The position numbers and the translations under genes were made by a program. Below, in pieces: positions 3,542 through 9,054 of a DNA stretch of 64,000 nucleotides. The notes beneath the pieces were generated by a model. The model did not search any database, was not told where the DNA came from, and was given only the letters and a program-made list of their open reading frames with translations. The stretch comes from Cyanidium caldarium (taxonomy: Eukaryota; Rhodophyta; Bangiophyceae; Cyanidiales; Cyanidiaceae), in assembly GCA_026184775.1 (NCBI GenBank), contig JANCYW010000011.1, positions 124,001-188,000 of the forward strand, given 5' to 3'. Each line of letters begins with the position of its first letter. The stretch's first letter is position 1.

Positions 3542-4164
3542 AGTACATCCTGAGCACCCAGGTGCTCCGTCTGACATTTTCGTGCCGTGGATTCCGATGC
3601 CACCCACGGCTGTTGTCGCTCGGTCGACGCGGCACTGCCGCCGATGTGCTCGCTGCCGGACGCCGCGGCGCACCGAGGCGTCAGCGGCCGCCGGCGCAAC
3701 CACCGTAAAATCGCCACGCAAGGTTCGATGGTTTCCCCTCGTCGCCCTGTCCACTCTAACGGACCCCCCGTGAACGTTGAGGCTGCTGCCACCAGCGACA
3801 ACGCGTTGCCCCACGAGCTGCGGTGTGCGAGGCGCGCTCAGCCCTGCAAGTGCAACGTTCGCAGAGACGATGTCCTCGATGAGCATCGCTGACGGTGTGA
3901 TGCACACTGCGGTGGAGATGGGCACTTTGGGAAGCGGGAAGGGCACATACGAGCGGTGTTGCCTGTACCGAGGGTGTCCGAGTGTTTTGCACGGACAGGC
4001 ACCGGTTCAAGGCGTAGTGCGGGGGGCGACGTTTGGCCAGGCAAGGAAGGCGAGGAGGGAGCGGAGGCGCGTTGGACGTGTGCTGCCGTTGGACAGTCGA
4101 TGATCAGAACAAGGCGTTATGAGCAACAAGGCGGAGCGCGGAGGAAGCCATCAGCTGACGTGCG
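3542..4164. other. Gap upstream of LeuRS
   Basis: About 620 bp lie between the LeuRS start and the 3' side of the U5 candidate. Short open frames exist on both strands but none resembles a known protein. An in-frame ATG at 3577 could lengthen LeuRS by 12 residues. I see no tRNA-like fold. It should hold the LeuRS promoter. Confidence 0.5.
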
Positions 4165-4475
4165 TCTCGCGCGCCGCTCCTCAGCAGCTGGCGTTCCTCC
4201 TTCGATTGCGGTAGGGGACGAAAAATTCCGGCGGCAGCGTTGCAGGCGGTCATGAAACCGCACCGTCCGCTGTCGCCTGGGGCACGAGTCGATCGCCGCA
4301 AGCGCGCGTTCGCCCTGCACGCGCATCGCCACACTGCGGGCGCGCTCGATGGCACGCCGGCCAGAGCGCCGCAGCCGGTGCGCTTCAAACCATCGTCCGG
4401 ACACCGCAAGTAAAAGGCATGGGGTGTTTGCGTTTCTCTCTCCAACCGCGGCTCGAGGGGCAGTCGGCAATCCCA
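4165..4475 (-). ncRNA. U5 spliceosomal snRNA candidate
   Basis: Read on the minus strand, bases 4419-4409 are TGCCTTTTACT, which matches the invariant 11-nt loop 1 of U5 (human CGCCUUUUACU). The loop is closed by an 8-position helix, ACACCCCA with TGCGGTGT, with one C-C mismatch. Flanking it are CGCAAA on the 5' side and TCCGG on the 3' side, where U5 has internal loop 1 (CGCAUAA and UCCGUGG). Outside this, AGCC-gc-GGT (4453-4445) pairs with ACCGGCT (4379-4373). An Sm-site-like AATTTTTCG lies at 4227-4219. It is followed by a hairpin (arms CGCC..GCT and AGC..GGCG, about 4194-4173) where the 3' terminal stem should be. Loop 1 aligns the exons during splicing. About 145 nt separate stem I from the Sm site, longer than in human U5 but reminiscent of enlarged U5 RNAs. 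The ends are estimates. Confidence 0.7.
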
Positions 4476-5116
4476 CTGCCCGTAGCCGGTCGGTGACGAT
4501 CGTTTGGCAGGGCTCGCGGACCACCGAGGTCACACGCGCACGCTCACAGCGCGACCGCCCGCGCCGCCGTCTCCTGCCGCCGCGGACGCCACTTCGCCCC
4601 CGGGAACGAACCCGAATCAGTCCGCGCCGGCAGCGGATAGTGCCCACGACGCAGGGGCCGGCGGCACGATGACGCGGAGACACCGCCCAAAGATATGCAG
4701 GGCGCGGCGTGCCGGGGGAGCCGCGCGCTGGAGCGACCCTTTCGGCATTTTAGGGAAATTCCCTTACGTCGATAGGGGACATTCCTGGGCGGCGCATTCC
4801 GTGGGAAAGCGTCCGTGATCGGTGAAGGGAGGGTCGTCGCGACGTTGCCGTTCAGGTCTGCTGGCGGGGCGTGCATGTCAGCAAAATGGCGGCGAGGCGC
4901 TTGATACCATCGGGAGTAGAGGCAAAGGCTGACGGAGACATGAGCGAGGCGCAGTTCGTGCCTGAAGAGACAACCCGAGGCGACGCGGACGCGTGGGTTG
5001 GCGGGCGACAACGACGACGTCGGTGCCGCGGCGCTGGCCACAACTCCCGGAGTCGTCCTGGGAACGAAGATTTTCAGGGACGTCGATGGACATCGCATTT
5101 AGGGTACGATAGAGTG
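4476..5116. other. Gap between U5 candidate and NUMOD3 gene
   Basis: About 640 bp that should hold the U5 promoter (minus strand) and the promoter of the 5117 gene (plus strand). It contains an interrupted palindrome, GGGAAaTTCCC (4753-4763), followed by a second GGGGAC/GTCGAT-rich stretch. No known element was recognised. The reading frame of the downstream gene is open back to 4871, but only from a GTG. Confidence 0.45.
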
Positions 5117-6451
5117 ATGGCCGCGGCCTTTACAGGTTGTGGAGTGTGGGGTCGGTTAAGTGTGTCGGGTCGACGCGCGTCCTTGCCGCCGTGGGCATCA
5201 GACGGCAGCGGCTTTACGTCTGCCTCTACGCTGCGAGTTTTGGCACTTCCCAGCACCGCCACCACCGACAACGTAGCGGCTGACCCCGTGTTCCCCTCCT
5301 CTTGCCCGGCACAACGATCACGGAGGAGGCGATCGCCGACTGCTCGTTTGTGCTCTGTGGGAATGTTGGCGCACTCGGAGGAGACTGGCCCAGCGCAGCG
5401 CGACCGTCCCGCCCGCCGAAAATATAACCGGCGAACGAAAGACGAGTTCTTCCTGCTCTTGCCGCGAAAGCCTCAAAGTCACCACCTGGCGCGCTTCCTG
5501 GTGCCTTTTATGGTGAGCGACGCGTTCACCACCGAGAACATCCTGGCGGTGGTGCTCGTGGCCACTCTGCTGCGTGTCGATCGGCGGCTGCTGAGCGAGC
5601 GGCCGCCGCGCTCACCGGAGACGCGTGCCAAGATCTCCCGCGCGCTCTCAGGGCATGTGCGCTCGGAGCTTTTTCGGCAGCGCATCTCCGAGCGCATGCG
5701 CGGCCGAAAGCTGTCGGAAGCGCATCGGTTGCACTTACGGCAGGCGCTGACCGGCGAAAAGAATCCGTTGTACGGACGGCGTCGCACACCCGAGGAACGG
5801 AGGCGGATTGCCGAGGGCGTGCGGCGAGCGCTTATAGCGCGGGCCCAAACACTCGGGCTCACCGACCACATCACCGCCGACGGGCGCGTCAAGATGCCGC
5901 GTCGCGAATGGACGGGAACCAAGCTGGAGCGCAATGTGCGCTTGGCCATACTGCGTCGTCGGCTGCACTCGGAACTGGATCGGGAGGTGGACGCGCACAT
6001 CCAGCTTGCTAACTCGCGCCCATTCACCAAGGAGGAAATCGAACGCCTACACGCCATGGTGGATGAGCGCCATCAGCGGGGCGGCAGTGGTGGAGACGGC
6101 GAGCCGCTGGATGCGGTTGAAGGGGCCGTGTCGCCGTCGTCGTCGTCGTCGTCGTCGTCGTCGGTGTCTGCGGAAACGTCGCCGCCATCGCCAAATGCAT
6201 CGCCGGCATCGGATAGCGCACACCGCAATGGTCAGGGCGCGAATTCCTCTCCAGTAGAACGCACCAGTGGCAACGCCAAAGTGCCGTGTGCAACCTGCCG
6301 CGGTGATGGCGTGTTGCCGTGCTCCGCTTGCGTGCAACGCTTCGGTATGCGCAGCAATCGGTGTCCCCAATGTCGCGGCAGCGGCATCGAGTTTTGCCGC
6401 GCGTGCGATGGCACGGGCTATGCTATGCGGAGCGTGACGCAGCGTCGGTGA
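5117..6451 (+). CDS. NUMOD3-repeat protein with DnaJ-type zinc finger
   Basis: A 444-residue protein, probably organellar. The first 80 or so residues are Ser/Ala/Arg-rich and acid-poor, like a transit peptide, and start at ATG 5117. From about residue 166 to 250 there are about three tandem NUMOD3-like motifs (patterns of the type PETRAKISRALSG and SEAHRLHLRQALTG). NUMOD3 is a helix-turn-helix-like DNA-binding module best known from GIY-YIG and HNH homing endonucleases, but no nuclease domain is present. A serine run coded by TCG repeats follows (about 6130-6165). The C-terminus (about 391-434) has four CxxC pairs (CATC, CSAC, CPQC, CRAC), with CxGxG-type spacing in three, as in the DnaJ cysteine-rich domain of the plastid proteins BSD2 and LQY1. 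DNA or RNA binding in an organelle is inference. Confidence 0.72.
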   Translation: MAAAFTGCGVWGRLSVSGRRASLPPWASDGSGFTSASTLRVLALPSTATTDNVAADPVFPSSCPAQRSRRRRSPTARLCSVGMLAHSEETGPAQRDRPARRKYNRRTKDEFFLLLPRKPQSHHLARFLVPFMVSDAFTTENILAVVLVATLLRVDRRLLSERPPRSPETRAKISRALSGHVRSELFRQRISERMRGRKLSEAHRLHLRQALTGEKNPLYGRRRTPEERRRIAEGVRRALIARAQTLGLTDHITADGRVKMPRREWTGTKLERNVRLAILRRRLHSELDREVDAHIQLANSRPFTKEEIERLHAMVDERHQRGGSGGDGEPLDAVEGAVSPSSSSSSSSSVSAETSPPSPNASPASDSAHRNGQGANSSPVERTSGNAKVPCATCRGDGVLPCSACVQRFGMRSNRCPQCRGSGIEFCRACDGTGYAMRSVTQRR

Positions 6452-6774
6452 AATCTGTGGAAACGTACAGAATGGCGGGTGACAATCGCACGATCAGAGA
6501 GACGCGTTGCTCGAGGGACGGACGTTTCGGGGGCGCACGTCGGAACCGATCTTCCCCAAAAAGTGCCCTCACTTGGGCACATTGCACGTGCTTCTGTAAA
6601 ATTCCCCGATCTTCCACGCATGCTTCCCCCGACTTCGCCGGCTGTTTCACTCTGCACCGATTGTGTCGCCTCTGTACCGCTGCCAGTATCACGCGCCGTG
6701 AAAAGCGCTGCTACCCAGGTGAACACCACGAGCTCGCTAGTATCATCGTCATTCGCTTTACCCCTCCGTTCACC
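6452..6774. other. FtsH upstream region
   Basis: About 320 bp between the NUMOD3/zinc-finger gene and FtsH. Besides the palindrome and G-box core listed separately, I see no open frame of note. The sequence becomes C/T-rich toward the FtsH start. Confidence 0.45.
6563..6590. promoter_or_regulatory. Inverted repeat plus G-box core upstream of FtsH
   Basis: GTGCCC (6563-6568) and GGGCAC (6575-6580) form a perfect 6-bp inverted repeat with a 6-nt spacer. It is followed at once by CACGTG (6585-6590), the palindromic G-box core used by bZIP and bHLH factors at many light-responsive plant promoters. The site lies about 185-210 bp before the FtsH ATG. Function is inferred from position only. Confidence 0.28.
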
Positions 6775-9054
6775 ATGGCGCGCTTGGCGTTTACGCTGAA
6801 TTCGGTGGCGCTCCCCGGTGGTTTTCTGGGGCGGCCGACGGCACCCCGGCAGGTGCGCTCAGTCGCGTCGGCGGCGCCGTCTCGCTACGCGCACGGCCGG
6901 CCGTCGCGGGCGGTGAGCGCGGTGCGCATGCAGGCGCCTGGATCTCAGTTACCGCCGACGACGTCGGAGACGTTGGGGCGGGTGCTGCGGGATGCGGTGC
7001 GGGAGAACGTGGAGCGCGGCCGCGTGGATGGCGCGCAGTATTGGACGCGACTGCAAGCTGCGCTCGCCACCGGCGTCCGTCGTCGGTCGCGCTCATCAAC
7101 GCTGGCCGGAGCGTTGGCGTCGGCGATGATCGTGCTCGCCGCGGCCACGCTAAGCGGTAGCGCGGGGTCGCTGCAGCTGTCGCCGGTGGCGAGCGCCCAT
7201 GCGGCGCCCGCGACCACCACCGCAGCACCGACGTCGCGGCCGACACAGAGTACCGCCATCAACGGCAACACGTCCGAGGTGCCCTCAGGCGGTCATTTGC
7301 GCTACTCGCAGCTGCTGGATCTGGTGCATCGCGATCGCATTGAAAAGGCCACCTTCGCCCCCGACATGCAGCGCCTCCTGGTGGTGGACGTGGACGGCAA
7401 TCGGTACCGCCTGGATGCGCTGCCGCCGGACCAGGAACTGTTGTCTGATCTGGCGGCGCACAAAGTGGACGTGACGGTGTTGCCGGCGCAGCAGGACGGG
7501 AATACGGGCGACCTTTTGCGCTCGCTGGTGGTGCCGCTGCTGCTGTTCGGCGGCCTGTTTCTGTTGTCGCGGCGCATCGGCGGCGGTTTCGGCGGGGGCG
7601 GCATGAACAACCCGCTGGACATGGGTCGCTCGCAGGCCAAAGTCCTGATGGTGCCCAAAACGGGCATCACCTTTGGCGATGTGGCCGGGGTGGAAGGCGC
7701 CAAGTTGGAGCTGCAGGAGGTGGTGTCGTTTTTGAAAAACTCGGACGAGTTCACCGAGGTGGGCGCGCAGGTTCCCCGCGGTGTTATTCTGGAGGGCCCG
7801 CCCGGCACTGGCAAGACGCTGCTGGCGCGCGCCGTGGCCGGCGAGGCTGGCGTGCCGTTCTTCTCCATCTCCGGATCGGAGTTTGTGGAGATGTTCGTGG
7901 GTGTGGGCGCTGCGCGAGTGCGCGATCTGTTCGCGCAGGCGAAGAAGAACGCGCCGTGCATTATCTTCATCGATGAGATCGACGCGGTCGGGCGGCAGCG
8001 GGGTGCGGGCTATGCGGGCGGCAACGACGAGCGCGAACAGACGCTGAATCAGCTGCTGACGGAGATGGACGGTTTCGAGGGCAACGCGGGCGTGATCGTC
8101 ATTGCCGCCACCAACCGCAGCGACGTGTTGGATCAGGCGCTGCTGCGGCCCGGCCGTTTCGACCGCCGCGTCGCCGTGGATTTGCCGGACGTGCGCGGGC
8201 GCCTGGGCATTTTGCGGGTGCACGCGCGCAACAAGCCGTTGGCGTCGGATGTCGACTTGGAGGTGATAGCGCGACGCACGCCCGGCTTTAGCGGCGCATC
8301 ATTGCAGTCGCTGATGAACGAGGCGGCCATCCTGGCGGCGCGCCGCGACGCCACCCAGATCACCAACGAGGACGTCGACGGAGCGCTGGATCGGGTGTTG
8401 TTGGGCCCGGCGAAGAAGGACACCATCATGTCGGAGTACAAGAAGCGTCTGGTGGCTTACCACGAAGCTGGCCACGCGCTCATCGGCGCACTCACACCCA
8501 GTTACGATCAGCCGATCAAGGTCACCATCCTGCCGCGCGGCGGTGCGGGCGGCGTCACCTTTTTCGCCCCCGATGAACAGCGCTCCGAGTCGGGCATGTA
8601 CTCGCGCCATTTCCTCGAGGCACAGCTATCGGTAGCGCTGGGCGGGCGCGTCGCCGAGGAGATCGTGTACGGCACCGAGGAGGCCACCACCGGCGCCTCC
8701 AACGATCTGCAACAAGTGACCAATGTGGCGCGCCGCATGGTGGCCGAGTTTGGCATGTCGGACGTGCTGGGCCCGATCACGGTGGAGAGCTCAGGCATGC
8801 CGTTCATGGGCCGTGAGATGGGCTCGCGCGGCCTGCCCTTCTCCATGGAGACCCGCAAGCTGGTGGACGCCGAGGTGGACCGCCTGGTGCGCGGTGCCTA
8901 CCAGCGGACGCACGACCTGCTCACCAAGAATCGGCCGCTGTTGGACAAGCTGGCAGACCTGCTGGTCGAGAAGGAGACCGTCACCTCCACCGAGATCGCC
9001 TTACTGATCGCCGAGGGCGACGTGCAGATGGCCGAGTACGCCGTGTTGCCGTGA
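6775..9054 (+). CDS. Plastid FtsH AAA zinc metalloprotease
   Basis: A 759-residue membrane protease that in plastids degrades damaged thylakoid proteins such as photosystem II D1. Order of parts: an Arg/Ser/Ala-rich transit peptide; a hydrophobic stretch ending in ASAHA (about residues 120-145), resembling a thylakoid-transfer signal; a small lumenal domain; a second hydrophobic segment (about 245-260); the AAA module with Walker A GPPGTGKT at 341-348, Walker B IIFIDEID and the arginine-finger region RPGRFDRR; then the peptidase with HEAGH at 563-567. All catalytic motifs look intact. ATG 6775 sits in a good Kozak context (caccATGg) and directly yields the targeting peptide. The sequence is closest in style to chloroplast FtsH rather than mitochondrial AFG3/YME1, but the exact paralogue cannot be fixed by eye. 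Confidence 0.95.

Follow-up and report, generated by a model that had tools for sequence, protein, structure and literature searches.

The minus strand at positions 4139–4454 very probably carries the U5 snRNA gene of a Cyanidium-type hot-spring red alga, apparently in single copy; U5 is a central component of the spliceosome. The locus belongs to a 64,000-nucleotide stretch of Cyanidium caldarium DNA (hereafter the window; contig JANCYW010000011.1, positions 124,001 to 188,000) and most likely represents a further example of an oversized U5 like that reported for the related Cyanidioschyzon, with no new RNA type involved. This assignment is based on the sequence and architecture of the locus, its uniqueness among the genomic sites searched, an Sm element that it has in common with a U2 snRNA candidate, and the presence of a Prp8 gene.

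Architecture of the U5 Candidate

The candidate is composed of the following parts, listed with their window coordinates.

4139..4454, minus strand: proposed gene for the U5 snRNA, about 316 nt; the ends are approximate, placed from structure alone
4442..4452, minus strand: outer helix, 5′ strand; 11 consecutive pairs with 4378–4368, three of them G-U
4428..4441, minus strand: internal loop 1, 5′ side; has the CG aligned to the Rfam consensus
4420..4427, minus strand: loop-1 stem, 5′ strand, ACACCCCA; 7 of 8 positions pair with UGCGGUGU, with one C-C mismatch
4409..4419, minus strand: loop 1, UGCCUUUUACU, 11 nt; exact match to YGCCUUUUACY
4401..4408, minus strand: loop-1 stem, 3′ strand, UGCGGUGU; pairs with ACACCCCA
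4379..4400, minus strand: internal loop 1, 3′ side; starts CCG like the Rfam consensus
4368..4378, minus strand: outer helix, 3′ strand; pairs with 4452–4442
4230..4367, minus strand: extra body, about 138 nt, separating the U5 core from the Sm site
4217..4229, minus strand: Sm element, GGAAUUUUUCGUC, 13 nt; shared exactly with the U2 candidate on contig C4
4140..4200, minus strand: 3′ terminal hairpin; about −33 kcal/mol, z −3.86 relative to shuffles

Most of what a first-pass annotation had proposed for this locus is borne out. The exact 11-nt loop on a helix is present as UGCCUUUUACU (4419–4409), which matches the U5 loop 1 consensus as quoted in PMC6461891, and the internal-loop sequences described there as U5-like correspond to the CG and CCG that align to Rfam. 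The proposed Sm site is found as the Sm-like GGAAUUUUUCGUC at 4229–4217. An Sm site usually ends in G; that of the candidate ends in C (AAUUUUUCG), and its Sm role is a prediction. The terminal hairpin is also present (4200–4140), but the limit of 4165 previously given for the RNA cuts through it, and in our structural model the 3′ end of the RNA probably lies near 4139, beyond that limit.

A GGGCAGU...ACUGCCC hairpin occurs at 4459–4481 on the minus strand, just upstream of the proposed 5′ end, and could be part of the U5 RNA or of its promoter.

Matches to the Rfam U5 Model

The Rfam U5 model (RF00020; cmscan) aligns 4435–4398 to model positions 20–57 with an accuracy of 1.00, an alignment that covers the loop, the 5′-side CG, and the 3′-side CCG of internal loop 1. 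The significant match to this model that the first-pass annotation had hoped for was not obtained: the candidate scores 23.0 bits, below the gathering score of 40, with an E-value of 0.65–1.46 that is not significant alone, and a comparison of the whole window with 4227 Rfam families at the gathering threshold returned no match. Because the gathering score is an annotation cut-off and not a biological feature, we do not count 23 bits against membership in this RNA class. Moreover, the snRNAs of Cyanidioschyzon are reported as the least conserved among the red algae compared in PMC5880011, which would lead one to expect weak Rfam scores in this group.

In the genome (20 contigs, 8,787,356 bp) this locus is the sole match to the U5 model at E≤10 (E 1.46), with 46 of the 109 first-look candidates scored. 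The score by itself is no proof, because the model at this threshold also matches in 2 of 14 control prokaryotes.

The Joint Architecture Compared with Chance

One alternative is a chance assembly, in which a random GCCUUUUAC in GC-rich intergenic DNA has acquired a stem and a downstream T-run by accident. The loop core GCCTTTTAC does occur at the control rate: its 49 genomic copies compare with 60 for the reversed control, so it means nothing alone and was rejected as evidence by itself. The non-significant Rfam E-value would also suit a chance origin, as would the unexceptional folding of the region described below.

It is the joint architecture that argues against such an origin, in keeping with the earlier judgment that a chance match of loop, helix, and Sm site is unlikely. 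When all 49 GCCTTTTAC sites were examined, only the U5 candidate combined a stem of at least 7 of 8 pairs with an AAUUUUU Sm-like site no more than 320 nt downstream. The next best stems among these sites have 5 of 8 pairs, and the one other site with a short GATTTTCT downstream has a stem of just 3 of 8. Stems of at least 7 of 8 pairs around 11 nt arise at 0.9% of window positions, a rate that drops to 0.7% when both loop-closing pairs must form. AATTTTT[GC] was counted 6 times in 394,298 strand-bases, equivalent to at most about 0.005 per 300 nt; since this background holds the candidate itself as well as loci fetched for their likeness to the Sm element, the true rate is lower. Outside the genome, GCCTTTTACT and GGAATTTTTC occur at the candidate's spacing in 41 stretches of prokaryote contigs. 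None of these has a stem of at least 7 of 8 pairs (best 6 of 8), and we take them to be chance matches and not relatives. A search of viral contigs with one exact 19-mer gave no match.

The Sm element brings in a second locus, located with a different model.

Contig C4, 121950–121857, minus strand: U2 snRNA candidate; best Rfam U2 match, with GGAAUUUUUCGUC downstream

The 13-mer GGAAUUUUUCGUC is exact at two sites in the genome, the U5 candidate and the U2 candidate, in the latter about 80 nt after GUAGU. Seven more sites have one mismatch, compared with one site within one mismatch for the reversed control; inspection of the seven by eye and for 10-mer complementarity to the U6 candidate (see below) revealed no evident snRNA. 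The strongest argument for U5 is this Sm element common to two loci, each detected with a different model, and together with the joint architecture it leaves a chance assembly very improbable.

Comparably improbable is that the locus is a decayed or second U5 copy, the working gene lying elsewhere and being too divergent for our searches. A U5 with an altered loop would indeed escape the pattern search, and the first-look list was scored in part, as given above. Against this, loop 1 is intact, the Sm element is the one also present at the U2 candidate, and the searches turned up no further site resembling the locus; the stronger U5 locus elsewhere that would have displaced it did not appear among the candidates scored.

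Folding Energetics

Folding energy was rejected as evidence for U5. The whole region folds slightly better than shuffles (z −1.57), and against shuffles the 84-nt core, a 51-nt piece, and a 38-nt piece have z-scores of −0.11, 0.55, and −0.91, respectively. The terminal hairpin alone exceeds its shuffles but not random pieces of the window, as the 90 nt 3′ of the Sm site are matched in folding by 118 of 400 random 90-mers from the window.

The unconstrained minimum free energy of a 361-nt segment is −171.7 kcal/mol, in a fold from which the loop-1 hairpin is absent; with the U5 architecture enforced, the energy rises to between −168.4 (stem alone) and −162.1 (all parts), such that the loop-1 hairpin costs about 3 kcal/mol and the hairpin with the outer helix about 9 kcal/mol. 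In isolation, the 38- and 51-nt pieces form the loop-1 hairpin with a pairing probability above 0.85; the probability falls to 0.60–0.68 within the 316-nt RNA and to about 0.2 within the 84-nt core. Because U5 works as an RNA-protein particle, this weakness in folding energy is not decisive.

The outer helix included in the first-pass annotation is present at its full 11 bp but lies close to background, since helices of at least 11 bp were found at 2.6% of 2000 random positions; we regard it as plausible, near chance.

Genomic Neighborhood

The assembly corresponds in size to that reported for Cyanidium caldarium 063 E5 (8.79 Mb, 65.7% GC, 20 chromosomes; Cho et al. 2023, PMC9812998), and the window has 63–67% GC in 4-kb steps. 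The same source bears out the description of the genome as intron-poor, giving 44 introns in its Table 1 and 46 in its text, and reports a mean intergenic length of 319.7 bp. The U5 locus is flanked by divergent ORFs that stand about 1 kb apart, roughly three times that mean, although the bounds of this interval are ORF limits and not annotated genes.

Reaches 3946, first ATG at 3886, minus strand: leucyl-tRNA synthetase (LeuRS) ORF
4871–6451, first ATG at 4886, plus strand: NUMOD3 ORF, 526 aa; NUMOD3 motif with E 6.8e-12

The NUMOD3 motif, which usually accompanies homing endonucleases, sits here in an apparently nuclear genome, and its ORF overlaps the start of an FtsH-type protease ORF (6319–9054).

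That the locus is instead part of a protein-coding gene or an mRNA leader is the least probable of the explanations considered, and hardly credible: open frames of 107, 113, and 188 aa do cross the region, as expected in DNA of 66% GC, but none of the six ORFs at or beside the locus has a Pfam match at E≤0.1, and the 188-aa ORF, the longest across the locus, has no homologue at E≤0.001 among 7985 candidates scored.

Other Spliceosomal Components

The genome encodes Prp8, with six Prp8 Pfam families detected (PRO8NT, PROCN, RRM_4, U5_2-snRNA_bdg, U6-snRNA_bdg, and domain IV; PF10597 E 5.8e-34). The U2 candidate, which reads GUAGUUUCUGUUCUUUCUACUGUAACAGGUAGAA, scores 21.0 bits (gathering 46) with an E-value of 0.17 (15 of 15 candidates scored); the U2 model at E≤10 also matches in 7 of 14 controls. 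A U6 candidate was identified on another contig.

Contig C14, 118843–118941, plus strand: U6 snRNA candidate; ACTGAGA at 118878

The Rfam U6 model gives it 13.4 bits (gathering 44) with an E-value of 6.15 (47 of 161 candidates scored), a weak match that is not significant alone; the model also matches in 10 of 14 controls, and the candidate was not recovered in a further Rfam search at E≤10. It contains ACUGAGA, followed 5 nt later by an AGC triad, the spacing seen in human U6, and also has a stem-loop and a run of five T. In Cyanidioschyzon U6, a U is reported to replace the central A of ACAGA (PMC8163875, PMC10581693), and the ACUGA box of our candidate has the same change. The altered Cyanidioschyzon U6 is described as base pairing with the +4A of GUAAGU introns, METTL16 and m6A presumably having been lost (PMC8163875). 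No match to the METTL16 family (PF05971) was found in the genome studied here, while 5 of the 14 controls match.

Neither U1 RNA (no matches at E≤10; 41 of 62 candidates scored) nor the U1C zinc finger (PF06220, a 38-residue domain; no matches) was detected in the genome, in agreement with the loss of U1 that has been reported in Cyanidioschyzon. U4 likewise gave no Rfam match at E≤10 (41 of 182 candidates scored). A U4 pattern derived from the U6 candidate matched 248 times; of the 20 loci inspected, none has an Sm-like site within 200 nt, and one is the antisense of the U6 candidate gene. Such negative results carry little weight, particularly for a domain as short as 38 residues, since the searches also failed to find U4, whose gene is expected to exist.

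The U2 and U6 candidates can form a helix I pairing of −6.2 kcal/mol; this was set aside as support for either, since 953 of 5000 random 25-mers pair as well, as do 772 of 5000 shuffles. The upstream regions of U5, U2, and U6 have no promoter element common to the three: the words that recur are matches of 8–11 nt at differing distances, none of them between U2 and U6.

Predicted Function and Comparison with Known U5 snRNAs

For the U5 candidate we infer transcription, RNA ends, binding of Sm and other proteins, and a role in exon alignment. The predicted RNA would be transcribed from the minus strand, and an Sm ring would bind AAUUUUU (4227–4221). Internal loop 1 would be the docking platform of Prp8, Snu114, and Brr2, while the role of loop 1 would be to hold the 5′ exon and bring both exons into alignment for ligation in the few dozen genes with remaining introns. 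The yeast U5 loop 1 is reported to tether and align the exons, and loop 1 and both sides of internal loop 1 to be important for the association of Prp8, Snu114, and Brr2 (PMC4065371); because the same RNA parts occur in the candidate, the same role is proposed for it. The roughly 138 nt that would have been added between the core and the Sm site are in line with the oversized U5 of Cyanidioschyzon. Rather speculatively, and with the odds well against it, this extra domain might be specific to the Cyanidiales and have assumed some of the early assembly or 5′ splice-site functions of the absent U1 snRNP, together with the ACUGA change in U6.

With U5, U2, and U6 candidates, a second genus of intron-poor Cyanidiales now becomes available. 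Each of the three lies below its Rfam cut-off, so annotation at gathering scores misses all of them. We found no report of Cyanidium snRNAs in the titles and abstracts surveyed; most subscription papers lie outside that coverage, so one may have been published. Cyanidium is reported to have split from the Cyanidioschyzon lineage about 0.3 billion years ago (PMC13353863), and a comparison between the two could show which parts of the oversized U5 are conserved. Parts conserved across both genera would be likely to do work in a spliceosome apparently without U1. Genetic transformation has been described for both algae (PMC13353863).

Like the Rfam RF00020 consensus, the candidate has loop 1, the stem in its position, and the CG and CCG of internal loop 1; unlike it, the stem letters are largely changed and the extra body precedes the Sm site. 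The first-pass annotation had read this long spacer as the mark of a divergent U5, and there is precedent for it. The U5 of Cyanidioschyzon merolae, also from an intron-poor member of the Cyanidiales, is reported as 450 nt (PMC6461891, citing Stark et al. 2015) and, like the approximately 316 nt that we assign by structure, is far longer than the Rfam consensus of 116–117 nt, a comparison made by reported length alone. Cyanidioschyzon U5 and U6 are further reported to be unusually complementary to 5′ splice sites (PMC8831791, citing Stark et al. 2015). The U5 of Saccharomyces cerevisiae (214 nt, PMC4065371), likened here by its description, also exceeds the Rfam consensus and has a core of loop 1 and internal loop 1. 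The nucleomorph U5 of Bigelowiella natans, from another reduced genome, is described as having the exact YGCCUUUUACY loop that the candidate has, but there the RNA is shortened to 58 nt (PMC6461891), whereas in Cyanidium it appears enlarged.
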